Shown here: in pieces, positions 14,595-28,010 of the stretch
Layout of the letters: each line of letters opens with the position of its first letter
Numbering within the stretch: the stretch's first letter is position 1
Assembly: GCF_900105965.1 (NCBI RefSeq)
Contig: NZ_FNTV01000001.1
Coordinates: forward strand, 2,976,001-3,040,000
Direction of reading: 5' to 3'
DNA: 64,000 nt
Origin: Arthrobacter alpinus
GTDB taxonomy: Bacteria > Actinomycetota > Actinomycetes > Actinomycetales > Micrococcaceae
Position numbers and translations under genes: made by a program
The notes under the pieces: model-generated
The model's input: the letters and a program-made list of their open reading frames with translations, nothing else
Database searches by the model: none
Told to the model about the DNA's origin: nothing

Positions 14595-15479
14595 CTAGTG
14601 GTCATCCATTGGGTAGGCGACTATCGCGATCCTGGTGCCCGTGGGATCCCAGCTGGGCACATTCATGGTGCCCTGGCCGCCGAACACTTCGGCCAGGGTC
14701 ACCGTGGTGCCGTCCTTCTCCAGTATCCGGACCTGGACGTCAACATCCTCCGGGTGCCCCAGCGTGCCGGGCGGGAAACTGACGTAAGCAAGCCGGGTCC
14801 CGTCCGGTGACGGGTGTGGGAACCAGTTGACCCGCTCGTCGTGGGTGAGCTGTTCCGGGGTGCCGCCAGAGACCGACATCCGGAACAGTTGGGCGTGGCC
14901 AGGGACCGTGGAACCACGTTCGGAGTTGAAGTAGATCCACTGCCCGTCGGGCGAGAATTCGGCACCGTCGTCCGGGTGAGCGTCGTCGGTGAGCTGCACA
15001 TCCGCCCCGCCTGCCACCGGTAGCACATACACGTTGGTGCGGACCTGCCCGTCGTTGAGCGCCAGTCCAATGTAGGCCAGCCACGAACCGTCCGGGGAAA
15101 CGCCGTGCAGGTAGTGCTTGAAGTGGGGTCCGTTGTCATTCGTCACGCGGCGCGGCCCCGCACTCCCTGCCGCAAGACCCACGGCGTAGATATGCCCGTC
15201 CTCGCTGGAAACAAAGGCGGTCCGCCCGTCGGGGCCGATCACGTGGTCATTGTTGATCTCGGCGATGCCGCCCAAGAAAATCTCCTGGAGTTCCCCGGCG
15301 TCGACCCCCAGCTGGAACAACCCGCCGTCACCGTTGATCAGCAGCGACGAGCCGTCGGGGCTCCAGTTGGGCGCCTCGAAGAGCAGCGTGTCGCTGGAGT
15401 ACCGCAGCGTTGGCTCTGCCGTCTCCACATCGATCACATAGAGTTCGGCTCGTTGCCCGTTTCGAAGCTGTCGTGCCAT
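14595..15479 (-). CDS. TolB/WD40-like beta-propeller protein
   Basis: This 294-residue protein is built of repeated blades with the TolB-type signature: WSPDGSSLLI, VSPDGSWLAYI, FSPDGQWIYFNS, PSPDGTRLAYVS and WDPTGTRIAIV. These are PD40/WD40-like propeller motifs spaced about 45-50 residues apart. There is no signal peptide, so it is probably cytoplasmic. Start ATG at 15479 follows AAGGCGG. It lies downstream of the thuA-like gene in the same direction and could be the last gene of that transcript. The blade sequence with LFRMSVSGGTPEQLTHD is typical of proteins that bind sugars or oligomers, but no activity can be assigned. Confidence 0.82.
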   Translation of the reverse strand: MARQLRNGQRAELYVIDVETAEPTLRYSSDTLLFEAPNWSPDGSSLLINGDGGLFQLGVDAGELQEIFLGGIAEINNDHVIGPDGRTAFVSSEDGHIYAVGLAAGSAGPRRVTNDNGPHFKHYLHGVSPDGSWLAYIGLALNDGQVRTNVYVLPVAGGADVQLTDDAHPDDGAEFSPDGQWIYFNSERGSTVPGHAQLFRMSVSGGTPEQLTHDERVNWFPHPSPDGTRLAYVSFPPGTLGHPEDVDVQVRILEKDGTTVTLAEVFGGQGTMNVPSWDPTGTRIAIVAYPMDDH

Positions 15480-15490
15480 GGTGTCCGCCT

Positions 15491-15557
15491 TGGTTGGGCC
15501 CACACGCCCGAGGGACCCGACGCGAGCTAGCGAGCGTTGGGAGGGCGCGGGGACTAG
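15491..15557. repeat. Gene-end repeat, copy A
   Basis: This stretch (GGTTGGGCCCAC, CGAGGGACCC, then GGGAGGGCGCGGGGACTAG) resembles 19784-19857 in order and sequence. In both places the minus-strand stop codon (CTA) of the gene to the right lies inside the terminal GGGGACTAG. It is probably a dispersed terminator-like element. Confidence 0.5.
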
Positions 15558-16297
15558 TTAATGAATGATTCCCAGGCCGGATTGCTCACCACAGGGTGCG
15601 CCCGGTGCTGATTCGGCTGCGCCACCCAGCCAACCCCGTTGGCGAGGACGCGCTGAACCTGCGGATGGTGGTAAACAGGGTATTCCTGATCGCCCGGGCT
15701 GAAGTAGAAGATCCGTCCCTTGCCGCGTGAGAAGGTGACGCCGGAGCGGAACACCTCTCCCCCGGCAAAGGAGCTGATGAAGATCAGGTCATCGGGCTCG
15801 GGGATATCAAACAGTTCACCGTACATTTCCTGCTTCGGGATGACGATGGGGCTTTCAATGCCAGCCGCGATGGGGTGTGAGGGCTTGACCGTCCACACAA
15901 GTTCGCGTTCGCCCTCATTGCGCCATTTCAAAGAGCAGGTGGTGCCGAGCAGCTTGATGAAAATCTTGGAAAAGTGCGCCGAGTGCAGCGCCACGAGCCC
16001 CATCCCGCCAAGCACGTGGCGCTGCACGCGCTCCACCACCTCGTCGGCGACGTCGCCGTGGGCAATATGGCCCCACCAGAGGACGACGTCGGTCGCCGCC
16101 AAGGTTTCTTCGCTCTGGCCATGCTCGGGGTCGGCCAGGGTGGCCGTGGTGATGTTGGCGTCAGGGTAGTACTCGCGCAGCGCCTCGGCGATGGTGCCGT
16201 GCATGCCCGCAGGGTACATGTCCCCGATGGTGGCGGGTTCGTTGTTGAGCTCGTGGACGCCTTCGTTCCAGACCAGGATGTTGAGCTTTTCAGCCAT
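15554..16297 (-). CDS. ThuA-domain protein (trehalose-utilisation type)
   Basis: A 247-residue protein covering the whole ThuA domain, a class-I-glutaminase-like fold. Visible family segments are ILVWNEGVHE at the N terminus, DVVLWWGHIAHGDV near 75, GLVALHSAHFSKIF near 100 and GKGRIFYFSPGDQEYP near 200. In rhizobia ThuA works with ThuB, a Gfo/Idh dehydrogenase, in making 3-keto derivatives of trehalose and related disaccharides. Here it lies 2 bp downstream of such a dehydrogenase gene (16300-17403), so the pair is conserved. Transcription is probably from the promoter at 17532-17568, shared with the other sugar operons through a common operator. Confidence 0.88.
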   Translation of the reverse strand: MAEKLNILVWNEGVHELNNEPATIGDMYPAGMHGTIAEALREYYPDANITTATLADPEHGQSEETLAATDVVLWWGHIAHGDVADEVVERVQRHVLGGMGLVALHSAHFSKIFIKLLGTTCSLKWRNEGERELVWTVKPSHPIAAGIESPIVIPKQEMYGELFDIPEPDDLIFISSFAGGEVFRSGVTFSRGKGRIFYFSPGDQEYPVYHHPQVQRVLANGVGWVAQPNQHRAHPVVSNPAWESFIN

Positions 16298-16299
16298 GG

Positions 16300-17403
16300 T
16301 TAGAGCCTCACTTCACGCTGTTCAAGGGCGGATTTGTAGCACGCATCGATAATAAGTGCCCGGTTCAGGGCTACGGAACCGTCGTACTGGCCCCAGACCC
16401 CTGCGCCGCTGCGGACGGCCGCGACGAACTCGTCGATAACCGATTGGTGGTTGCCATCTTCAAGGGGCTCCGCCACATAGTCGGCGTTGACGTCTTCTTT
16501 GTCGGTGAAGACGCGCAAGCCGGAATCGGATATCTGGAGTGACTGCGCAGCGCGCAATTCAGCGCCGCCGTCGGTTCCGTAAACACGGAAGTCCATGAGA
16601 TCGGCGGGATCGCGGTAGCTGGCCCAGCCGGCCTCCACCACCAAGGTGACGCCGCCTTCCAGACGGATGAATGCCGAGGCGAAGTCTTCCACCTCAAACT
16701 TGTTGTTTGCCGAAGCTGCGATGTAGGTGGCGTCGCCGCCGCGACCCTGGGCACCCAGTTCTGAGTAGGCAGAAGCTGAGACGGAGATGACCTTGGGCTC
16801 ACCCAGCAGGTGCAGCGCATAGTCCAGGACATGCACCCCAATGTCAGCCAAGGGTCCGCCACCGGACAGCTCGGGGTTCGTAAACCAGCTGCCCAGCGTG
16901 GGGATTCCTCGGCGGCGAAGCCAGGAAGCCTTCGCGTAGTACGGGCGTCCCAGCTCGCCGTCGTCAATGATGCTCTTGAGTTTTTTGACGTCGCCACGTC
17001 GTCGATGATTGAAGACAACGTCCAAGACACGGCCGGCCTGGCGGGCAGCAGCAACCATGGCCGCGCCCTCTTCACCGTTGCGGGCCAGCGGCTTTTCGCT
17101 GAGGACATGCAGTCCGCGTTCCAGCGCGGCGATGGTGATGGGCGCATGCAGGAAGGTCGGAACGGCCACGCTGACTGCGTCCAAACCTTCCAGTTCCAGA
17201 AGATCTTCCCAGCGGGAAAACCCATGGGGGATGTTGTACTCGGTCTGGAGCTGGGCCAGGAGTTCGGATTCCATGCCCGCCACAGCAACAACTTCCACAC
17301 CGGCCACATTGCTAAAGGCCTTTATGTGTTGCTGCCCGGCCCAACCAACACCCACTACACCAACCTTGAGAGGTACGGTTTTGCTCAAATTTGAATCACT
17401 CAT
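16300..17403 (-). CDS. Gfo/Idh/MocA-family sugar dehydrogenase (ThuB-like)
   Basis: A 367-residue NAD(P)-dependent oxidoreductase. The dinucleotide motif GVVGVGWAGQQH is at residues 14-25, the family motif EKPLARN near 100 and the C-terminal beta sheet domain contains GGPLADIGVHVLDYAL. It would oxidise a hydroxyl of a sugar or glycoside. The start ATG at 17403 follows GAAGAGG; upstream in-frame codons are less coding-like. It precedes thuA by 2 bp, forming a ThuB-ThuA pair. The upstream promoter carries the same dyad as the ABC transporter and the isomerase operon, so it belongs to the same regulon. Substrate unknown; C3 oxidation of a glycoside is inferred from the pairing. Confidence 0.9.
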   Translation of the reverse strand: MSDSNLSKTVPLKVGVVGVGWAGQQHIKAFSNVAGVEVVAVAGMESELLAQLQTEYNIPHGFSRWEDLLELEGLDAVSVAVPTFLHAPITIAALERGLHVLSEKPLARNGEEGAAMVAAARQAGRVLDVVFNHRRRGDVKKLKSIIDDGELGRPYYAKASWLRRRGIPTLGSWFTNPELSGGGPLADIGVHVLDYALHLLGEPKVISVSASAYSELGAQGRGGDATYIAASANNKFEVEDFASAFIRLEGGVTLVVEAGWASYRDPADLMDFRVYGTDGGAELRAAQSLQISDSGLRVFTDKEDVNADYVAEPLEDGNHQSVIDEFVAAVRSGAGVWGQYDGSVALNRALIIDACYKSALEQREVRL

Positions 17404-17531
17404 CGAATGCCTCTTCTTGTTTCGTACCGGGAACGGAGCGCCAATCCGGGTTAACGAAACTTGGGGCACCGGATGTTCAAGGTTGTGTTGGTGGCCTGCC
17501 TAGGGACAAGCCACCTTACGAACAAGCATTA

Positions 17532-17568
17532 AATCTAGATGAGCTTATGACGACCGTCAATCAAAAGT
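17532..17568 (-). promoter_or_regulatory. Promoter with regulon operator, thuB-thuA operon
   Basis: Reading on the minus strand: -35 TTGACG (17555-17560), 17-bp spacer, -10 TAGATT (17532-17537). The -35 lies inside a dyad with arms ACTTTTGA and TCATAAGC separated by 10 bp (17543-17568). The same arrangement recurs at 21242-21278 and 23853-23890. A protein bound here would block the -35. Confidence 0.75.
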
Positions 17569-17753
17569 GGCTCATGTTCAAAGATTACTTAAAATCAGAG
17601 GAAATTCGATGACGGCTTTACTTCGAGAAGATATGTCAGGGTACTTATGGCACTCATCTGGTAAAAGTCACCACTCCCTTTGCTGTGCTCTCGCCGCACC
17701 CTGGGTGCGGTGCCGGTGCAGTCCAAACTGCTTTGTCTCCGGCACCGCGGGCC

Positions 17754-18593
17754 TTACTTAACGGCTCCGGCCGTCAGACCAGCCACAAAGTTCTTCTGGA
17801 GAAGCAGGAAGCCGATCACGATGGGGATGCTGACAACCACCGAGGCGGCCATGATCTGGTTCCAGTAGACATTGGTCTGTGTTGAGTAGAGCTGAAGGCC
17901 CACCGCCAGGGTCCGGTTCGCGTCGGTAGTCATGACTGAGGCGAACAGGACTTCACCCCAACTGGTCATGAAACTGTAGATGGCGACGGCGACGAGTCCG
18001 GGCCGGGCCGCGGGCAGGATCACCTTGATCAGTGCGCGCATGGGACCGCAGCCATCCACCTTGGCGGCTTCATCCAGTTCGCGCGGGATGCCATCGAAGT
18101 AGCCTGCGAGCATCCAGATGGAGAACGGCAGCGAGAAGGTCAGGTACGTGATGATCAAACCGACCCGGGTACCTACCAGCTGAACACCGAAGTTGGTGTT
18201 GATGTTCACGAATATCAAGAACAACGGCAGCAGGAACAGCACGCCGGGCAACATTTGAGTGGACAAGACCGTGCCGGAGAAAAGCGCGCGGCCGCGGAAG
18301 GTGTAACGGGAGATGGCATAGGAGGCGAAGATCGCGATGATCAGGGAGAGCAGAGTTGCAACGGTGGAGACAATGACGGAGTTCAGGAAGTAGTCTGCCA
18401 GCGGAACTGTCTTCCACATGTCAATGTATGGCTGAATCGTCAGTGTTTCAGGCCACCAGGAGAACGAACCTTGTACGTCCTTCAGTGGCTTCAGTCCTGA
18501 GATCACCATGACGTAGATGGGGATGATGGTGAAGATGCTCAGCAGGGTAATGGTGACGATTCTAAAGACCTTGGCGCCGGTTGTTTCATGCAT
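17754..18593 (-). CDS. Carbohydrate ABC transporter permease (MalG-type)
   Basis: A 279-residue inner-membrane permease with six predicted helices. The cytoplasmic EAA loop reads PRELDEAAKVDG then ILPAARPG, the site that docks the ATPase. It is of the CUT1 family and is the second permease of the importer encoded by 17754-21153. Its start overlaps the end of the MalF-type gene by 8 bp, indicating translational coupling. No ATPase gene follows; actinobacteria commonly use one shared MsiK-type ATPase for several CUT1 importers. The substrate is probably an oligosaccharide or glycoside degraded by the dehydrogenases of this cluster. Confidence 0.93.
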   Translation of the reverse strand: MHETTGAKVFRIVTITLLSIFTIIPIYVMVISGLKPLKDVQGSFSWWPETLTIQPYIDMWKTVPLADYFLNSVIVSTVATLLSLIIAIFASYAISRYTFRGRALFSGTVLSTQMLPGVLFLLPLFLIFVNINTNFGVQLVGTRVGLIITYLTFSLPFSIWMLAGYFDGIPRELDEAAKVDGCGPMRALIKVILPAARPGLVAVAIYSFMTSWGEVLFASVMTTDANRTLAVGLQLYSTQTNVYWNQIMAASVVVSIPIVIGFLLLQKNFVAGLTAGAVK

Positions 18594-19559
18594 TGTCTTT
18601 CCTCCGGTTCATCAAGAGCAGGTAGATTCCGCTGGCGACCAGCAGGAAGAGCAGTAGCAGGACCGACATTGCGGCACCCGAACCGAAGTTCCAGGTCAGG
18701 AATGAAGCGTTGTAGATATGGAAGGAGATCAAGTCACCTGCCGGTGGCTGCGAGCCGCCGAACAAGACGAAGGGGGTGTTGAAGTCGTTGAAGGTCCACA
18801 GGAACATGACGAGGACAAGAACCATGTTGACCGGGCGCAGCATGGGCAAGGTGATGTGCCACCACTGGCGGAACGGCTTTGCACCGTCAACGGCCGATGC
18901 CTCGTACACATCGTTGGGGATGGACTGCAGACCAGCCATCAACATCAAGAACGCGAAGGGCCACAGGCGCCAAATGCCTACAACAACGACGGCGAGGAAC
19001 GCGTTGTCGCCGATCAACCAGAACGGCTTGTCCCGGGCAGGCCCAGGTTGTCGAACAGCAGGTGGTTAAGCGCTCCGCTGTCCTTTTGCAACATGAACTT
19101 CCAGGCGATGACACCCGCGTACATGGGCAAGGCGTAGGGAATCAGGAACAAGGTGCGGAAGATGGCGCGTCCGCGGAAGGTCTTCTGCAAGGCGACGCCG
19201 GCGGCCATTCCGAGGCTCCAGGAGATGCCGACCACCAAGATGGTGAATGCGGCGGTGATGCCGAATGATTTCAGTAATCCGAGCCCAACGGCGGAATCGA
19301 AGTCGAGGGCAACCTGGTAGTTCTTCAACCCAACGAAGGGGGCGTTTCCCCAGTTGGAGATGAACATCTTGGTGAGTTTGAGGAAGCTCATCCAGATTCC
19401 CGTGACCATGGGAACTACGTGGATGAAGAGCTCAAATATGACGGCTGGTGCCAGCAGCGCATAGGGCAACCACCAGCCGGCGCGACGGGGCTTGCGGGCT
19501 TTCCTTCCGGTGGCCCCGGCTGCGTGGCCGGATTTCTTTACGGCGGTGGATGCAGACAC
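18586..19559 (-). pseudogene. Carbohydrate ABC transporter permease (MalF-type), interrupted by a -1 frameshift
   Basis: Two adjacent minus-strand frames together encode one complete MalF-type permease of about 320 residues. The first part runs from near 19559 to a premature stop at 19014 after LFDNLGLPGT. The second part continues in another frame with KPFWLIGDNAF and contains the EAA loop PNDVYEASAVDGA. Restoring one G in the run at 19031-19037 gives LGLPGDKPFWLIGDN with no other change, so a single base is missing. The start is uncertain: GTG at 19559 or 19568, both after AGAAAGG. If real, the importer cannot work; if a base-calling error, this is an intact gene. Neighbours are a lipoprotein and MalG-type permease. 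Confidence 0.85.
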
Positions 19560-19730
19560 TGCGAACACGCACCTTTCTGAGAATGTTTGAAAAATGAAGG
19601 GGGCGGAGGACTCACGCCAGGTGAAGAACTGAATAGACCAACGGCTGAAGAAGACAAGCTGAGTTGGTGTGTGAGGCTGAGAGAAACCGGCTGGGCCCGT
19701 GCTTGGGACGAACTGTCTGGGACCACGCCG

Positions 19731-19857
19731 GCGAGGGCCCCAAGTTACGGGTCGCTCAGCAAGCCAATCCTGGGTGGAACCGGTTGGGCCCACGGCTCCG
19801 AGGGCCCCAAGCTACGGGTCGCTCAGCGACCCGTAGCTTGGGAGGAGCCGGGGACTA
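19731..19857. repeat. Gene-end repeats, copies B and C, with 18-bp hairpin
   Basis: GAGGGCCCCAAG(T/C)TACGG followed by GTCGCTCAGC occurs twice, near 19733-19760 and 19798-19826. The second copy contains a perfect inverted repeat: CCCAAGCTACGGGTCGCT (19806-19823), one base, then its complement (19825-19842). It lies 13 bp after the stop of the binding-protein gene at 19855. The hairpin probably limits transcription from the abundant binding-protein gene into the permease genes. Confidence 0.6.
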
Positions 19858-21153
19858 GCTTGCTGCTTCGACCGCCTGCTGTGCGGTGGTCAGTGCTGCC
19901 TTGATGTCGTCCTTGGAGACGGTTCCGCCGGAGGCGATTGTGGCGAACATCTGGTTCATGGCCTTGCCTACGGTGCTCTCGAACTGGTCTTCAGCCGGTA
20001 CCAGGGGCAGGGGCTTGGACTTGTTTTCGTAGATGTCGGCGAAGGTCTTGGCCAGTTCTGCATCTTCGGTGAAGCTGGGGGTGACCCCGGCGAGAACTGG
20101 GAGGGCTGCGAACGGTTTGTCGAGTTCGGCCTGCGTGGTCTCGCTAGTCATGAATTTCACGAATTCCAGTGCGCCGTCCTTGTTCTTCGTGTTCTTGAAG
20201 ATGGACATGTTGATACCGGCAACCATGGTGGCTACGTCCTTGGCGCCTGACGGTGCGGGGAAGGCAACTACGCCAAATTCGTCGCTCTTCATGCCTTGGG
20301 AGTTGATGGAGCTGTTGGCGTTGCTCTGGCTCAGCACCATGCCAACCTTGCCGTTGGCAAAGTCGTTGACGGCCTGGGTTGCGTTGTCGTACTGGGCGTT
20401 GGCGGGGTCAACAACCTTGTCGGTTTGCATGAGGTCTAGGTAACGAGAGATGCCATCTACAACACCGTCTTCGGTGAACGTGGGCTTGCCTTCAGCATCG
20501 AAGAATTCTGCGTCGTTCTGGGCTGCGTTGATGAAAGCAAAGTGGGAGTTCTCGGTGTAGCTGCCGGCGGCCAAGGCGAAGCCGTGCTTGTCACCGGTTG
20601 TCAGCTTCTTGGCTGCTGCAACCATTTCTTCCCAGGTGGTGGGCGGGGTGAGACCGGCGTCCTTGAACATTGCCTTGTTGTAGTAAAGGCCGTAAGCCAA
20701 GCCGTACAGGGGTACGGAGGTGGGGTCTTCGCCGGGGACTCCACCGGTGTCCATGGCGGTTTTGACGAATTTGTCCTTGCCACCAATGGCGTCGAGGGCA
20801 GTTGAGTCGAAGGGCATGAACGCGCCGGTTGACTGCAGTGAGGCTGCCCAGGTATTGCCGATATTGAGGACGTCGGGTGCCTGACCCGAGGTGACAGCGG
20901 TCTGGATGCGGGTCTGGAGATCGTTCCAGCCGATGACTTCAAGGTTGACCTTGATGCCGGTCTCTTCCTCAAACTTCTTCAGCTGCGGTGTGAGAACTTC
21001 CTTGTCGTTGTCCAGGCTGGTGCCTTGGTTGCTGGCCCAGTAGGTCAGCGTCTTGCCGTCTGACTCGCTGGATGCGCTGTCGGCAGGTCCGCTACAACCG
21101 GTGAGGGCAAGTGCCGCGATGGCCGCTACCGCGGCAAAAGATCGAATTTTCAC
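19855..21153 (-). CDS. Extracellular sugar-binding lipoprotein of a CUT1 ABC importer
   Basis: A 432-residue solute-binding protein. The N-terminal signal peptide ends in a lipobox (ALALTGC), so it is a lipoprotein on the outer face of the membrane. The mature protein has family-1 binding-protein features such as ITVW-like strand TLTYWASNQG, the segment APDVLNIGNTWAASLQ and the hinge FAAGSYTENSH region. The GTG start at 21153 follows AAGGAAG; an upstream frame extension would cover the promoter. It is the first gene of the importer operon, followed by a hairpin and two permease genes. Its promoter at 21242-21278 has the common operator, so the substrate is likely the inducer source. Confidence 0.92.
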   Translation of the reverse strand: MKIRSFAAVAAIAALALTGCSGPADSASSESDGKTLTYWASNQGTSLDNDKEVLTPQLKKFEEETGIKVNLEVIGWNDLQTRIQTAVTSGQAPDVLNIGNTWAASLQSTGAFMPFDSTALDAIGGKDKFVKTAMDTGGVPGEDPTSVPLYGLAYGLYYNKAMFKDAGLTPPTTWEEMVAAAKKLTTGDKHGFALAAGSYTENSHFAFINAAQNDAEFFDAEGKPTFTEDGVVDGISRYLDLMQTDKVVDPANAQYDNATQAVNDFANGKVGMVLSQSNANSSINSQGMKSDEFGVVAFPAPSGAKDVATMVAGINMSIFKNTKNKDGALEFVKFMTSETTQAELDKPFAALPVLAGVTPSFTEDAELAKTFADIYENKSKPLPLVPAEDQFESTVGKAMNQMFATIASGGTVSKDDIKAALTTAQQAVEAAS

Positions 21154-21241
21154 TTCAATGACTTCCTTGTCTGAGGGGATTAGCCCGGAAAAATCTTCAA
21201 ATCTCAGGTGTGGCGCAGGCCATACCGAGGACGTGAATCCC

Positions 21242-21279
21242 AACCTAGACGAACTTATGACGAGCGTCAATCAAAAGTC
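21242..21279 (-). promoter_or_regulatory. Promoter with regulon operator, ABC importer operon
   Basis: On the minus strand -35 TTGACG (21265-21270), 17-bp spacer and -10 TAGGTT (21242-21247). The dyad arms ACTTTTGA and TCATAAGT, 10 bp apart, span 21253-21278 and enclose the -35. Identity with the copy at 17543-17568 is 24 of 26 positions. Confidence 0.78.
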
Positions 21280-21478
21280 GGGAAATTAATAAATTCTTAT
21301 GGCTTCATGACCGCCTAATCGCGCACCGTAGCCCAGCAAAATGGCAGGCCCAGTGAATTGAATCGAGTAAGAATCCTTGGTTTCTAGGCTTTTTTGACGC
21401 TCCACCTACAACGAGATGCGTAGCACTGAACCGGTTAACTTAAGTAGCGAAATCGTTACATCCACCGATTCGTGCGAC

Positions 21479-22534
21479 CTAGCTGCGCGCAGCAGCCAAG
21501 CTGGTCCGGCGTCGCAAGATACCCGCTGGCATGGGCACATTCGCCCGCTCGTGACCCTGAACAATATCCAGCAACAGCAGGGCTGATTGGCGGCCCAATT
21601 CACCAATATCGCGGTTGAGCGCTGCAACAGGCGGGGAGCTGAATTGGCACATAATTGAGTCGTCCCAACTGACCACGGAAACCTGCTCGGGCACGGAAAT
21701 TCCCAGTTTTTTCAGTCCGGCCAACCCACCCACGGCCATAAGATCGTTTCCGTAGAAAAGTGCAGTGGGAAAGTCTTTCGAGGCAGGATCCAGACCCGCC
21801 ATCAGCGCAATGGTGGCCATCTCCCCGTCGGCCGCGGTGTAATCCGACGCCGTGACAACGGCGGAGATCCCCAACGCTTGCGCATGATCCACGACGGCGG
21901 CGCTCCTGGCACGCTCGTGCCCCAGCGTCGGCAGGCCCGAAATGTAACCGATTCGGCGGTGTCCCAGCTCATGCAGCGCCTGGACCACTGTGGCCGCATC
22001 GGCCGATTGGTCCACAACGGTTGCTGCACTTCGGGTTGCGAGTGCCCGGGTGCCGCCCACAACAACGAAGGGCAGGCCAAGATCGTTCAGCAACTGACCG
22101 CGGGGATCGTTGCTGCTCTCATCGAAAAGCAGGACCCCATCCACGCGGCCCTCCCCCACCCACCTGCGGTACACGGCCAGGTCCCGACGTTCGGTTGCAC
22201 AGTCACCGGCAGTGTCCGGCGCAACTATCCGCAGCATGAGGTTTTGTTCGCGCTCACCCAGGACCGCCTCGATGCCCGCCAAAACACTCAGGTAGAAAGG
22301 CTCGGAACCCACGTGGGCAGGGTCGCGCAATAGGACAATGCCAATGGTTTCACTGCGCGATTGTGACAACGCCCGGGCACTTGAACTGGGGTACCAGCCC
22401 AGCGCCGCGGCCAACGCCAAGACCTTTTCACGCGTCTCCTCGCTAACTCCGGGCCGGCCGTTGAGCGCATAAGAAACCGATGCCTTGGAGATGCCCAACT
22501 GCTGTGCCAGGGAAGTGATTGTCACGTTGGGCAT
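21479..22534 (-). CDS. LacI-family transcriptional regulator
   Basis: A 351-residue repressor. The N-terminal LacI helix-turn-helix reads ITSLAQQLGISKASVSYALN, then the hinge helix SSSARALSQSRS. A periplasmic-binding-protein-like effector domain follows (IGIVLLRDP, RIGYISGLP, FYGNDLMAVGGL). It lies 8 bp downstream of the ROK regulator gene in the same direction, so the two are co-transcribed. LacI proteins of this kind usually bind sugar effectors and repress adjacent sugar operons. The 26-bp operator of this locus is a candidate target, although its AT-rich arms are not the classical LacI form. Which of the two regulators binds it cannot be decided here. Confidence 0.92.
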   Translation of the reverse strand: MPNVTITSLAQQLGISKASVSYALNGRPGVSEETREKVLALAAALGWYPSSSARALSQSRSETIGIVLLRDPAHVGSEPFYLSVLAGIEAVLGEREQNLMLRIVAPDTAGDCATERRDLAVYRRWVGEGRVDGVLLFDESSNDPRGQLLNDLGLPFVVVGGTRALATRSAATVVDQSADAATVVQALHELGHRRIGYISGLPTLGHERARSAAVVDHAQALGISAVVTASDYTAADGEMATIALMAGLDPASKDFPTALFYGNDLMAVGGLAGLKKLGISVPEQVSVVSWDDSIMCQFSSPPVAALNRDIGELGRQSALLLLDIVQGHERANVPMPAGILRRRTSLAAARS

Positions 22535-22542
22535 GGGAATTC

Positions 22543-23790
22543 CTAAGGCTGTTGCTGGACTAGAAGTTCCACACTTGCTGGTGAAAGGATGTGGTCGATG
22601 ACCATGTGCCCGGCACCTAGGACGCCCGCGTGCCCGCCTGCCATCGACTGCACAATGCGCAATCTGGCCGTTGCAAGCGGAAGCGAACGTTGGTACACAA
22701 TCTCGCGCACCCCGGCCATGAGGTATTCACCAGCAGAGGAAAGGCCTCCGCCAATCACAATGACGGAGGGATTCAAGAGGTTCACGCTCGCGGCAAGCAC
22801 ATCCCCCACATCGCGTCCGGCCTGTCGCATGGCGGCAATGGCGGCCAGATTTCCGCGCCTTGCCAGCTCGAGGACGTCCTCGGCTGTTGCTGCCGGAACT
22901 CCTGCCGCGGCCAGCGACGACGCCACGGCCGGGCCCGATGCCATGGCTTCCAGGCAACCGATATTCCCACAGCGGCACATCACATCACCGCCACGAGGAA
23001 CGCGCACGTGCCCAATATCCCCGGCCGTTCCGTCGGCTCCTCGCTGAAGCAGCCCGCCGCTGATGATGCCGGCACCAATACCGGTGGCCACCTTTATGAA
23101 GAGTAAATTCTCGACGTCGGGCCAGTAGGAGGCGCGTTCTCCCAGTGCCATGATGTTGACGTCGTTGTCCACCAGAACGTCTACATCAAAGCGATTCTGA
23201 ACGTACGCTGGCACATCAAAGCCATCCCACCCGGGCATGATGGGCGGGCTGGCCGGCTTGCCTGTGGAGTGCTCCACCGGCCCCGGCAGACCGATGCCGA
23301 TCCCCACGAGCTCGCGTTCATGGCGCCCGGCCGTAGCGAAAATCTGGCCGCACAGTTCAAGCATTTGATCCAACACTGGCGTTGGCCCGGCAGCAATGTC
23401 GATGTCTTCGCGGACCTCGCTCAGCACAGCGCCACGAAGGTCCAGCAACGCCACGAGCATGTGCGTGGCCCCTACGTCCACGGCCAAGATGACGCGTGCG
23501 GAAGGCTGAAAAGCAAAGCGCGACGGCGGCCGCCCACCTGAGGAGACTGCCTCACCGGCAGGACCGATGAGTCCGGCTGCACTCAGGGCATCAATGCGGG
23601 CAGCAACGGTGGAGCGGGCCAATCCGGTGATGGTGGCTAGTTCCGCCCGGGTCCTGGCGCGCCCATCGCGCAAAAGTTGAAATACGTCGCCGGCGCGGGA
23701 CTGCCCGTACGGCTGACCGGCAGAATCAGGGCTGTCGGCAGTGCTTGGCGACTCCCTGCGCGACTGGGGCAATCCTGGTGACTTTGGCAT
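22543..23790 (-). CDS. ROK-family transcriptional regulator (NagC/XylR type)
   Basis: A protein of about 415 residues. A winged helix-turn-helix begins near residue 30 (GDVFQLLRDGRARTRAELA then GLARSTVAARIDAL). The ROK sugar-kinase-like domain begins with ILAVDVGATHMLVALLDL, includes GIGLPGPVEH and GADGTAGDIGH, and has the zinc motif CRCGNIGCLEA. The start is uncertain: ATG at 23790 or 23808. A longer start at 23844 would lie upstream of the predicted transcription start. The gene is divergent from the isomerase operon; the shared operator covers both promoters, so autoregulation is likely. It may sense the free sugar or a phosphorylated product. Confidence 0.9.
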   Translation of the reverse strand: MPKSPGLPQSRRESPSTADSPDSAGQPYGQSRAGDVFQLLRDGRARTRAELATITGLARSTVAARIDALSAAGLIGPAGEAVSSGGRPPSRFAFQPSARVILAVDVGATHMLVALLDLRGAVLSEVREDIDIAAGPTPVLDQMLELCGQIFATAGRHERELVGIGIGLPGPVEHSTGKPASPPIMPGWDGFDVPAYVQNRFDVDVLVDNDVNIMALGERASYWPDVENLLFIKVATGIGAGIISGGLLQRGADGTAGDIGHVRVPRGGDVMCRCGNIGCLEAMASGPAVASSLAAAGVPAATAEDVLELARRGNLAAIAAMRQAGRDVGDVLAASVNLLNPSVIVIGGGLSSAGEYLMAGVREIVYQRSLPLATARLRIVQSMAGGHAGVLGAGHMVIDHILSPASVELLVQQQP

Positions 23791-23846
23791 CCCCAATAAA
23801 TAACACATGGGCTTCCAACTGTCACAATTCTTTAGATCGGTCATTA

Positions 23847-23890
23847 AATACAAACTTTTGCTTGACCATCGTCAAAAGTTCCCATAAGTT
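23847..23890. promoter_or_regulatory. Divergent promoters sharing one regulon operator
   Basis: Plus strand: -35 TTGACC (23862-23867), 17 bp, -10 TAAGTT (23885-23890) for the isomerase operon. Minus strand: -35 TTGACG (23870-23875), 17 bp, -10 TGTATT (23847-23852) for the ROK-LacI pair. Both -35 boxes lie in one dyad with arms ACTTTTGC and TCAAAAGT, N10 (23854-23879). Confidence 0.75.
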
Positions 23891-23928
23891 GATCTGGAAC
23901 ACACATTCATGCCTTTCAGGAGTTCCCA

Positions 23929-24663
23929 ATGACGTATTCTCTGCAGCTGTACACCGTTCGCAAGCCCCTCGAAGAAGATCTGCCCGGCACCATTGCCCGC
24001 GTGGCAGAGCTTGGCTTCACCAAGGTTGAGCCCTACAACTTCGTTGCCACGGCCGACGCCTTGGCCGCAGCCTTTGCCGAAAACGGCATCACAGCCCCTT
24101 CAGGCCACGCCCCGCTGCTCAAGGATGACCAGGACGAGATCTTCGCCGCCGCCAACAAGTTGGGCATCACCACAGTGATTGATCCCTTCATCCCGGCCGA
24201 TCAGTGGCAAACCGCAGAAGACATCCAGAAGATTGCAGACGGCCTCAACGCCGCAGCGAAGAAGGGCGCCGAATACGGCGTCCGCGTGGGTTACCACAAC
24301 CATGCCTGGGAGCTGGAGTCCAAGATCAACGGCACCAGCGCCCTGGAATACTTTGAGACCCTGCTGGATCCGGAACTTGTTCTCGAAGTGGACACGTACT
24401 GGGTTTCCGTTGGCGGCGCCAACGCCGTTGACGTCCTGACCAGCCTCGGCGAGCGCGTCAAGTACATCCACATCAAGGACGGCCCCCTGACCACCGACAA
24501 TCTGGCGCAACTTCCCGCCGGCCAGGGCAAGGTCCCGGTCTGGGACGTCATTGAAGCCGCCAAGTCCTTGGAAGTTGGCGTCGTTGAATTCGATGACTAC
24601 GCGGGCGATATCTTTGAAGGCATCGCTGAAAGCCTCGCCTTCCTCAATGCAGGAAAGGCCTGA
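23929..24663 (+). CDS. Sugar isomerase/epimerase-fold (AP-endonuclease-2 family) protein, 244 aa
   Basis: A TIM-barrel protein of the xylose-isomerase-like superfamily. Metal-binding and active-site segments are visible: FTKVEPYNF near residue 30, VGYHNHAWELE near 120, VLEVDTYWVSVGG near 155 and IHIKDGPL near 180. Members isomerise or epimerise sugars; some homologues in C3-oxidation pathways eliminate or hydrate 3-keto-glycosides. The ATG follows AGGAG. It is the first gene of a plus-strand operon with two Gfo/Idh dehydrogenases and a second isomerase-fold protein. The operon promoter bears the regulon operator. The exact reaction is not predictable from sequence alone. Confidence 0.88.
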   Translation: MTYSLQLYTVRKPLEEDLPGTIARVAELGFTKVEPYNFVATADALAAAFAENGITAPSGHAPLLKDDQDEIFAAANKLGITTVIDPFIPADQWQTAEDIQKIADGLNAAAKKGAEYGVRVGYHNHAWELESKINGTSALEYFETLLDPELVLEVDTYWVSVGGANAVDVLTSLGERVKYIHIKDGPLTTDNLAQLPAGQGKVPVWDVIEAAKSLEVGVVEFDDYAGDIFEGIAESLAFLNAGKA

Positions 24664-24669
24664 TCCCCC

Positions 24670-25776
24670 ATGGCAAAGACAGGACCCGTAGGCGTTGCCT
24701 TCATCGGCGCCGGAAACATCAGCAAGCAGTACCTGGACAACCTGACCAAGTTCCCCGACGTCAAGGTACTTGTCATTGCGGACCTCTTTGAGGAAGCCGC
24801 AGCCGCCCGCGCAGCCGAGTACGGCGTCGAAATTTCCGGCGGTGTGGACGTAGCCCTGAACCACCCCGACGTTGAAATCATCGTGAACCTGACCATCCCG
24901 GCGGCCCACGTTGAGGTTGCCACGGCAGCGATCAAGGCAGGCAAGCACGTCTGGACGGAAAAGCCGTTCTCCCTGGACCGCGAAAGTGGCTTGGGACTCT
25001 TGAAGGAAGCACAGGCTGCAGGCCTCCGCTTGGGTTGCGCCCCTGACACCTTCCTTGGTGCAGGCCTGCAGACGGCTCGCCGCCTGATCGACGCCGGCGA
25101 AATCGGTACGCCGCTCACGGCACTGACCATGTTCCAGTCCCCCGGCCCGGAGTCATGGCACCCGAACCCGGCATTCCTCTTCCAGGAAGGCGCCGGCCCG
25201 CTGTTCGACATGGCTCCTTACTACCTGACAGCGCTGGTTCAGGCCTTTGGCCCAATCGCCAAGGTGGCCGCCGTGGGAAATACCGCATTCCCCACGCGCA
25301 CCATCGGCTCCGGCCCGAAGGAAGGCGAGGTGTTCGACGTCGAGGTTCCCACCCATGTCAGCGCCATTGCCCAGTTTGAATCCGGCGCATCCTCACACAG
25401 CGTCTACAGCTTCGAGTCACCCAAGGCCCGTATGGGATTTGTGGAGATCACGGGCACCGAGGGCACCATCTCCTTGCCCGACCCGAACAACTTCGACGGC
25501 GACATCAAGCTGTGCAAGCGCGGCGAAGATGACTGGACGTCCATCCCGGCAACCGGTCCCGCCGATGGCCGCGGCCTGGGCGTACTGGACATGGCCCGCT
25601 CCATCCGTGCCGGTGTTCCGCACCGTGCCACGGGCGAGCTGGCCTATCACGTCCTGGACGCCATGGTGTCCATCTCCGAGTCCGTGGACAGCGGCGAATT
25701 CGTTCAGGTCACCAGCACGGCTCCGACCTCCGAGCCCGTTCCGGTGGACTGGAACCCCGCCGCAGCAACCCTTTAG
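24670..25776 (+). CDS. Gfo/Idh/MocA-family oxidoreductase
   Basis: A 368-residue NAD(P)-dependent sugar oxidoreductase. The nucleotide-binding strand is GVAFIGAGNISKQY at residues 8-21 and EKPFSLD near 100. The C-terminal alpha/beta domain includes GAGPLFDMAPYYLTALV, corresponding to the family's substrate-site segment, and an internal ITGTEGTISLPDPN strand. It starts 6 bp after the preceding isomerase-fold gene, so the two are translationally close. Within a 3-keto-glycoside scheme it could be the oxidising or the reducing partner. It differs clearly from the other two dehydrogenases of the cluster, which argues for separate reactions rather than duplication. Confidence 0.9.
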   Translation: MAKTGPVGVAFIGAGNISKQYLDNLTKFPDVKVLVIADLFEEAAAARAAEYGVEISGGVDVALNHPDVEIIVNLTIPAAHVEVATAAIKAGKHVWTEKPFSLDRESGLGLLKEAQAAGLRLGCAPDTFLGAGLQTARRLIDAGEIGTPLTALTMFQSPGPESWHPNPAFLFQEGAGPLFDMAPYYLTALVQAFGPIAKVAAVGNTAFPTRTIGSGPKEGEVFDVEVPTHVSAIAQFESGASSHSVYSFESPKARMGFVEITGTEGTISLPDPNNFDGDIKLCKRGEDDWTSIPATGPADGRGLGVLDMARSIRAGVPHRATGELAYHVLDAMVSISESVDSGEFVQVTSTAPTSEPVPVDWNPAAATL

Positions 25777-25789
25777 GAATCCTACGACT

Positions 25790-26998
25790 ATGACCTCCCC
25801 TCAAACATCCGGCACCCGCCCCCTCGGCGTGGCCGCCATTGGCTACGCCTTCATGGGACAAGCCCACTCCAACGCATGGCGCACCGTTGCCAACCACTTC
25901 GACGTCCCTGACTTTGAACAAAAGGTTCTCGTAGGACGGGATGCCGTGGCCGTTGCTGCCGCCGCAAAGAAGTATGGCTGGAGTGAATCCGCCACTGATT
26001 GGCGGGAGGTCATAACGCGGGACGACATCGACATCGTCGATATTTGCGCCCCGGGATGGCTCCACGCAGAAATTGCGACGGCGGCACTCGCCGCAGGCAA
26101 GCACGTGCTGGTTGAGAAGCCGCTAGCCAACTCCTTGGCCGAGTCCGAGTCCATGGTTGCCGCGGCCCAGGCAGCGCGCAATGTTGGCGTACGCTCCATG
26201 GTCGGCTTCAACTACCGGAGGGTGCCGGCCCTGGCGCTGGCCCGCAAACTCATCGACGAAGGCGAGTTGGGCACTGTCCGTCAGGTCCGCGCGTCGTACC
26301 TGCAGGACTGGCTGGCCGACAGCGAAGCCCCCATGACGTGGCGGCTTCGCAAGGAAACCGCGGGATCGGGCGCCCTGGGCGACATTGCCTCTCACGCCAT
26401 CGATCAGATCCAGCACCTGCTCGGCGACACCGTCACGGCCGTTTCCGGCAAGTTGCACACCTTCACCACCGAGCGTCCTGGTCCGGACGGGATCGAGCCT
26501 GTCACGGTCGACGACGCCGTGTGGGCAACGCTGTCCATGGCGGGCGGAGCCATGGCAAGCGTTGACGTTTCACGCGTGGCACTGGGACAGAAGAATGCCC
26601 TGCGCGTAGAGGTTTATGGCACGGCCGGGTCACTAACCTTCAACCTGGAAAACCCCAACGAGCTGTACTTCCTCAACGGCACCGAGCCCATTGAGGTTCA
26701 GGGATTCCGACGCATCCTTGTCACGGAACCCGAACACCCCTATATTTCAGGGTGGTGGCCGCAGGGACATGTGATTGGCTGGGAGCACAGCTTTACCCAC
26801 CAGATTCGCGACTTCCTCCACAGCATCGCCGACGGAACCGATCCGTCACCGTCATTCGAGGAAGGACTCGGTGTCCAGCAAGTACTGGCCGGCATCGAGG
26901 CCTCATCGGCGGCAGGCGGATTGACCGTCCCGGTAGTGGCTGTCGAAACCACCCCGGCGGTTGAGCCTGTCGAAACCCAACTCCTCCACAACTCTTAA
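25790..26998 (+). CDS. Gfo/Idh/MocA-family oxidoreductase, LgdA-like N-terminal motif
   Basis: A 402-residue member of the same superfamily, starting at ATG 25790 with AGGA about 11 bases before it. The N-terminal motif is [14 protein letters not shown], where the second glycine of the usual GxGxxG is alanine but the FMGxAHSxAW core is kept. EKPLANS is near 110 and [17 protein letters not shown] near 200. Dehydrogenases that oxidise levoglucosan and similar glycosides at C3 share the FMGxAHS core, as I recall the family; this is not a proof of substrate. It is the third gene of the operon, 14 bp after the previous one. It is the best candidate for the primary glycoside dehydrogenase. Confidence 0.88.
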
Positions 26999-27008
26999 GG
27001 ACCGACCC

Positions 27009-28010
27009 ATGGCACGCCCCTACACATTGTTCACCGGCCAATGGGCCGATCTCCCCTTCGAAGAGGTAGCGCGACTGGCCTCCGACTGGGGCTACGACGG
27101 CTTGGAAATTGCCTGCTCGGGCGATCACCTTGACCCGTGGCGCTGGGACGAGCCCGGCTACGTTGAAGGCAAGCTTGCGGTGCTGGATCGCTACAACCTG
27201 AAGGTCTGGGCCATCTCCAACCACCTCAAGGGCCAGGCCGTGTGCGATGATCCCATCGACTTCCGCCACCAAGCGATTGTCAGCGCCAAGGTGTGGGGAA
27301 ACGGCGACCCCGAGGGCGTGCGCCAACGCGCTGCCGAGGAAATGAAACTGACCGCACGGTTGGCTCAGGCGCTGGGCGTCAAGACAGTGGTTGGCTTCAC
27401 CGGATCCTCGATCTGGCAGTACGTGGCCATGTTCCCGCCCGTTCCGGAATCCGTAATTGAGGCGGGTTACCAAGACTTCGCCGATCGCTGGAACCCCATC
27501 CTGGACGTCTTCGACGAATGTGGTGTGCGCTTCGCCCACGAGGTTCACCCCTCCGAAATCGCCTACGACTACTGGACCACCGTGCGTTCCCTTGAAGCCA
27601 TTGGCCACCGTGAGGCGTTCGGCCTGAACTGGGATCCGTCGCACTTCATGTGGCAGGGCATTGACCCCGTCTCCTTCATCTGGGACTTCAAGGACCGGAT
27701 CTACCATGTTGACTGCAAGGACACGAAGCTGCGCCCAACAGGCCGCAACACTGTCATGGGCTCGCACCTCCCGTGGGGAGATCCGCGCCGCGGCTGGGAC
27801 TTTGTCTCCGCCGGCCGTGGAGACGTGCCCTGGGAATCATCGTTCCGAGCCTTGACGGCCATTGGCTATGACGGCCCCATCTCCGTGGAGTGGGAAGATG
27901 CCGGCATGGACCGCCTCCAAGGTGCGCCCGAGGCCCTGGCCGCCCTGAAGAAGTTCGACTTTGCACCGTCCGCACTGTCCTTCGACGCCGCGTTCAGCAA
28001 CCAGGCCTGA
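27009..28010 (+). CDS. Sugar isomerase/epimerase-fold (AP-endonuclease-2 family) protein, 333 aa
   Basis: The second TIM-barrel protein of the operon. Characteristic segments: [14 protein letters not shown] near 30, [14 protein letters not shown] near 180, [13 protein letters not shown] near 210, [11 protein letters not shown] near 235 and [12 protein letters not shown] near 300, supplying the acidic and histidine metal ligands expected. The ATG at 27009 follows AAGGA; a start further upstream would overlap the preceding gene. The protein is about 90 residues longer than its paralogue at 23929, so it is not a simple duplicate. Co-occurrence with two Gfo/Idh proteins fits consecutive lyase and hydratase steps on 3-keto sugars. 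The operon ends here, before the 86-bp repeat. Confidence 0.88.

Follow-up and report, generated by a model that had tools for sequence, protein, structure and literature searches.

The 64,000-nucleotide stretch of the Arthrobacter alpinus genome analyzed here (C1:2976001-3040000, called the window below; the genome has 4,622,641 bases in two contigs) carries, between positions 14595 and 28010, a gene cluster that we read, at a probability of roughly 0.7, as one regulon under a ROK-family regulator that would import a glucoside and strip its glucose by chemistry at C3. The broader assignment to 3-keto-glycoside catabolism is very probable, and the best reading of the substrate is some glucoside that is not levoglucosan. 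The gene families, an operator unique to the locus, the conservation of gene order, the fold and catalytic residues of one PF01261 barrel (BarA) and the homology of a second (BarB) were all computed here. Open reading frames and family profiles give eight minus-strand genes, starting with the one at 14595-15503, followed on the plus strand by BarA, GfoA, GfoB and BarB, with the operator copies between them:

14595..15503, minus strand: PD40/TolB-like propeller (Pfam PD40 75 bits; PDB best 2ojh, 192 bits); no step assigned
15554..16297, minus strand: ThuA (PF06283, 115 bits), possible 3-keto-glycoside processing enzyme
16300..17403, minus strand: GfoC, Gfo/Idh dehydrogenase, ThuA partner (PDB best DgpA 7xr9, 160 bits)
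17544..17568, minus strand: operator copy upstream of GfoC-ThuA-PD40 (pattern match)
17754..18593, minus strand: MalG-like CUT1 permease (family profiles)
18586..19560, minus strand: MalF-like CUT1 permease, frame broken near 19032 (two tblastn pieces in two frames)
19855..21147, minus strand: importer sugar-binding protein, start uncertain (SBP_bac_1 188 bits)
21254..21278, minus strand: operator copy upstream of the binding protein (pattern match)
21479..22534, minus strand: LacI-family regulator (family profile), missing in several operator-keeping relatives
22543..23790, minus strand: ROK-family regulator, predicted as the likely operator binder (ROK 197 bits; start 23790 or 23853)
23854..23878, plus strand: operator between ROK and BarA (pattern match)
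23929..24663, plus strand: BarA, PF01261 barrel, predicted 3-keto-beta-glucoside lyase (model matches, catalytic residues)
24670..25776, plus strand: GfoA, Gfo/Idh dehydrogenase, BarA partner (family profile, model, gene neighbors)
25790..26998, plus strand: GfoB, Gfo/Idh dehydrogenase, LgdA kin (LevoglcsnDh profile, below cut-off; tree)
27009..28010, plus strand: BarB, PF01261 barrel, predicted 2-hydroxy-3-keto-glucal hydratase (140 bits to 8ro4; genome contexts)

The first-pass annotation had proposed a glycoside pathway proceeding through C3 oxidation, and our analysis supports that proposal, pathway and substrate being predictions from sequence. Its gene list also stands, apart from the propeller at 14595-15503, which it omitted: the three Gfo/Idh dehydrogenases are dissimilar (21-27% pairwise identity), ThuA starts 2 bp past the end of GfoC (16300/16297), the two barrels are unlike although both are PF01261, the LacI and ROK genes lie 8 bp apart, and no importer ATPase gene was seen among the open reading frames of the 14595-28010 interval. 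The genome holds 24 Gfo/Idh-type matches; three within 13 kb is above the background density, though such genes cluster in operons.

The three transcription units of the locus form one regulon, as had been claimed. Comparison of their upstream regions revealed a partly palindromic 25-bp site, ACTTTTGNTTGACNNTCGTCANAAG, which at up to three mismatches has exactly three occurrences in the whole genome, one before each unit, while a control pattern matched nowhere in the genome and shuffles of the window gave no match. Since the pattern was written from these same three sites, it is tested by whether it is missing from the rest of the genome and returns in relatives: it is present in 36 of 119 related loci, 29 of which adjoin a ROK gene in our own annotation, and shuffles of 60 loci in 3-base blocks produced no match. 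Because no LacI gene accompanies the operator in several loci, among them L111, L112, L117 and L120, the ROK protein is the likely binder. At L144, L151 and L170 the operator lies upstream of GfoB-BarB, with ROK on one side and CUT2-type importer genes on the other. Different substrates may thus act through one and the same inducer, perhaps a late pathway intermediate.

BarA and BarB match a lyase and a hydratase, respectively, better than known isomerases or epimerases, so that the grouping with known isomerases which the first-pass annotation had named as a refutation does not hold. The best structural matches of the BarA model are the 3-keto-beta-glucopyranoside-1,2-lyases 8tcd and 8tct, followed by AtOGE; the entries 8tcd, 8tcr and 8tct belong to the lyases AL1 and BT1. 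BarA retains the fold and the metal/catalytic residues of AtOGE, in a comparison that used an AtOGE fragment ending at residue 202 and leaving Glu233 outside it, and is weakly similar to LgdB1 proteins (26-30% identity over 136-152 amino acids); BarA is likely to be a lyase. BarB is homologous to the 2-hydroxy-3-keto-glucal hydratase AtHYD (PDB 8ro4; E 9.8e-40, 140 bits), and orthologues 76-80% identical to it occur in 5 of 12 true levoglucosan loci. We predict with comparable assurance that BarB is a hydratase. The machinery that it marks is present in 71 of 120 Micrococcaceae genomes.

Gene neighborhoods were compared at 79 BarB loci (the best 80 of at least 593 relatives, less one dropped; 59 are longer than 19 kb), where genes were called by our own codon score and absences are soft; the sets of loci used in this analysis overlap (L057 is the L122 region, L065 overlaps L100, and L095 overlaps L128). 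GfoB immediately adjoins BarB in 47 of them, and 64 have a Gfo/Lgd relative of some kind no more than 3.5 kb away; of the 79, 49 have ROK, 49 CUT2, 17 CUT1 and 19 BarA with GfoA. In a tree, GfoB shares one clade with the levoglucosan dehydrogenase LgdA (support 100/99), apart from the LgdC clade and from IolG, the IolG side consisting of one long-branched row. The GfoA model resembles a generic sugar Gfo/Idh enzyme and does not discriminate, with levoglucosan dehydrogenase (38.5), anhydrofructose reductase (38.1) and glucose-fructose oxidoreductase (37.4) tied; GfoA has a Tyr at the position of the LgdA His. We lean slightly toward GfoA as the oxidizing and GfoB as the reducing enzyme. A reductive role of GfoB is favored by five loci (L142, L171, L183, L184 and L187) where an LgdC-clade protein occupies its slot; its kinship to LgdA, together with the many CUT2 loci that lack GfoA, favors an oxidative role instead.

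The proposed mechanism is built throughout on homology and gene context. The CUT1 importer would take up the glucoside, using an ATPase encoded elsewhere, and its C3 hydroxyl would be oxidized with NAD+ by GfoA, or by GfoC in the second unit. BarA would then take the proton off C2 and drive out the aglycone by metal-dependent beta-elimination, giving 2-hydroxy-3-keto-glucal, to which BarB would add water to yield 3-keto-glucose; reduction by GfoB would deliver glucose and regenerate NAD+. GfoC-ThuA would serve as a second oxidize-and-cleave arm into the same BarB-GfoB trunk. The net outcome would be hydrolysis with no net change in NAD.

The ThuA half of the "ThuA/ThuB-like pair" named in the first-pass annotation is well founded: the window protein shares 55.9% identity over 93% with the protein at 332498-333175 of Sinorhizobium meliloti 1021 pSymB, a gene that other S. 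meliloti records name 'trehalose utilization protein ThuA'. The ThuB half is not: GfoC, beside the window ThuA, is no ThuB orthologue, being 31.8% identical over 198 amino acids to the dehydrogenase next after ThuA in S. meliloti and 29.1% over 199 amino acids to the other of two rhizobial neighbors. Close ThuA relatives were found at 47 places in 39 of 197 family genomes, and in all 30 of the loci examined among these a Gfo/Idh gene lies within 1.5 kb (GfoC type in 27, another type in three). ThuA-domain genes occur in 14 of the 79 BarB neighborhoods versus 0.5 to 3 expected. The expectation is our estimate: 98 genomes of some 4 Mb yielded 141 matches, which makes about 0.5 per 1.45 Mb, and it rises to 2-3 in the few families where such genes are crowded (up to 13 per genome). 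In the A. alpinus genome, each of the three ThuA genes adjoins a Gfo/Idh gene near CUT1-like permeases. The third, 59% identical to the window ThuA, sits between CUT1-like permeases and another Gfo/Idh gene (L194 8505-13638; C1 about 3048.5-3053.6 kb). No catalytic assignment for ThuA was found in the accessible parts of the literature searched, which excludes most subscription journals.

The second ThuA belongs to another cluster (L193 8068-12933; C1 about 1374.1-1378.9 kb) in which two CUT1-like permease genes are followed by paralogues of GfoB (51%) and GfoA (GfoA2, 43% identical to GfoA) with a different ThuA between them, and which has no BarB; in one relative (G009) a cluster of this type also has BarB (69%) between GfoB and ThuA. 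Neighbors of the GfoA family were counted at 97 loci, comprising 57 best places (30 in the family, 27 in the class) and 40 hand-picked from lower parts of the lists: ThuA alone adjoins 59, BarA alone 31, both one and neither six. By sample, the best family places have ThuA in 30 of 30 and the 20 lower ones BarA in 18 and neither in two; the best class places have ThuA in 26 of 27 and neither in one, and the 20 lower ones BarA in 13, ThuA in three, both in one and neither in three. BarA adjoins all 30 GfoA genes in loci selected for BarB. Since genes of this family adjoin either ThuA or BarA and rarely both or neither, ThuA may perform an equivalent cleavage, and the simplest reading is that the two may do the same work on different 3-keto-glycosides. 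Extended to the window, this gives a tentative scheme in which ThuA is a 3-keto-glycoside cleaving enzyme, counterpart of the lyase barrel, and two arms meet at one hydratase and one reductase: GfoA-BarA for 3-keto-beta-glucosides and GfoC-ThuA for trehalose-type alpha-glucosides, both switched by one ROK operator, for which a late intermediate of the two arms might be the signal. The division by anomer is a guess: AtOGE prefers beta-glucosides and AL1 and BT1 are named for such substrates, whereas thu substrates are alpha-linked.

Several cautions apply to this scheme. A midpoint-rooted tree of 95 GfoA-family rows has essentially one split and no repeated swaps (Shimodaira-Hasegawa-like approximate likelihood ratio 80), with BarA in 33, neither in two and both in one of the 36 rows on one side, and ThuA in 57 and neither in two of the 59 rows on the other. 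What had looked like many partner switches is thus essentially one, and the pattern is strong as conserved linkage and weak as replicated evolution. Similarity between the ThuA partner of GfoA2 and the window ThuA is confined to short stretches, and because the two are only remotely alike, the argument is carried over to the window by inference. The nearest solved relative of GfoC, DgpA, acts on a beta C-glycoside, and adjacency of genes is not activity.

In a less probable alternative, GfoC and ThuA would form a thu-type disaccharide module of their own, which shares the regulator and bypasses BarB and GfoB. The close relationship of the window protein to ThuA agrees with such a module, as do 24 of the 30 ThuA loci, where BarB and a close GfoB are both missing from the 1.5 kb on either side of ThuA. 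The genome-unique operator shared with the other units argues the other way, as do the three loci with a close GfoB and the three with BarB within that distance, and the different ThuA that stands between BarB and GfoA2 in G009.

Two alternatives to glucoside cleavage by the locus as a whole appear improbable. In an inositol- or sugar-acid-type pathway, the enzymes would handle keto-inositols or keto-sugars, the barrels acting as IolE-like dehydratases or epimerases, and no glycosidic bond would be cleaved. The inositol pathway was rejected on scores under the curated cut-offs: GfoA, GfoB and GfoC fall far below the IolG cut-off of 355 bits (window proteins 70-116 bits), and window proteins reach 43 bits on the IolE profile against a cut-off of 290. 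With these scores and the place of GfoB in the LgdA clade, the grouping with inositol enzymes that the first-pass annotation had named as a refutation does not hold. The barrels, moreover, are nearer to 3-keto-glucopyranoside lyases (BarA) and to the 2-hydroxy-3-keto-glucal hydratase (BarB), and the contexts of BarB are levoglucosan and C-glycoside operons. A pathway for levoglucosan or another anhydrosugar, with GfoB as the LgdA equivalent, is just as unlikely. It would account for the clade shared by GfoB and LgdA and for the BarB orthologues in true levoglucosan operons, but GfoB is 41% identical to LgdA and scores 322.5 bits against the NCBIfam cut-off of 650, and two genomes with a true LgdA (G018 and G039) carry both systems. 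A true levoglucosan operon was rejected, as no protein in the whole genome exceeds that cut-off (best 351 bits).

Relatives of the locus come, by record titles, from Micrococcaceae, and a megaplasmid of Arthrobacter sp. ERGS1:01 holds a near copy, in which the MalF-like permease is intact; the two tblastn pieces of the A. alpinus permease are 88% and 92% identical to it. Unless the frameshift is a sequencing artifact, this strain has a defective importer. The best PDB match of the binding protein is weak (Lin1841, 103 bits) and gives no substrate. The gap that separates the binding-protein gene from the first permease gene contains, at 19680-19860, several palindromic copies that are nearly identical and center on GGGTCGCTCAGC; they may belong to a family of intergenic palindromic repeats. 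PD40 relatives occur near BarB in 6 of the 79 loci.

Some BarB contexts merit separate mention. On plasmid pSA2 of Novosphingobium resinovorum (L102 1047-9008), a BarB orthologue is the last gene of a C-glycoside deglycosidase-type operon adjoining aromatic-ring and gallate dioxygenase genes. The ThuA-domain genes in BarB neighborhoods include some in Cellulosimicrobium, Nocardioides and Glycomyces (L148 4006-8997, L188 3238-9699, L182 6514-9972) that encode ThuA-GSDH-PKD-CBM6 proteins of very large size, apparently secreted, beside BarB. L140, L165, L167, L169 and L182 have in common, close to BarB, a gene for a type I phosphodiesterase (PF01663 in L167) and members of two more gene families. 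In three related genomes (G031, G079 and G116; L049, L052 and L053) the BarB match contains an in-frame TAG. A record titled Vibrio cholerae strain 35D (L126) holds a Micrococcaceae-like BarB locus, 83% identical, and is probably mislabelled or contaminated.

The sequence of oxidation, elimination, hydration and reduction is already an established route of deglycosylation in a few systems; the locus would put this known chemistry into an arrangement that is new and comes with its own regulator and operator, and it is widespread in Actinomycetes. The predicted regulator and operator make such regulons readable from sequence. ThuA is the more surprising part, and its role becomes testable in that one dehydrogenase family adjoins either a lyase barrel or ThuA. 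Among known systems, AL1 and BT1 are the best structural matches of BarA, but the dehydrogenases of the locus differ from the BT_2158/BT_2159 families, and a PF06439 3-keto-disaccharide hydrolase, considered as cleaving enzyme, is absent from the genome (four control genomes were positive). In the puerarin system DgpA-DgpB-DgpC (PMC8563793), DgpA is the best PDB match of GfoC, at 160 bits; a search for the CGDB subunit (PF19906) gave no match in the genome, nor in the control genomes. The rhizobial thuEFGKAB genes, according to Ampomah 2013 as cited in PMC10433430, assimilate trehalose, maltitol and sucrose isomers via 3-keto derivatives; ThuA at 55.9% identity, the CUT1 importer and a Gfo/Idh partner are shared features, whereas GfoC is not close to ThuB and the locus has no ATPase gene. 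In the Agrobacterium operon GlycDH-AtOGE-AtHYD-Gfo, whose AtOGE prefers beta-glucosides, the first oxidation is performed by the flavoenzyme GlycDH (PMC10628242), and no gene for a flavoenzyme of this type is found among the open reading frames of our locus. The levoglucosan pathway LgdA-LgdB1-LgdB2/LgdB3-LgdC (PMC7676230; PMC10066097), whose gene complement had been ascribed to the operon at 23929-28010, is matched by an operon that combines a pair of Gfo/Idh enzymes with a pair of PF01261 barrels, and by BarB, which corresponds to what is described for the proposed hydratase LgdB3 (compared by description, not by LgdB3 accession). The differences are that GfoB lies under the LgdA cut-off, that BarA resembles LgdB1 only weakly, and that the A. 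alpinus locus adds the ThuA-GfoC unit and the ROK operator.

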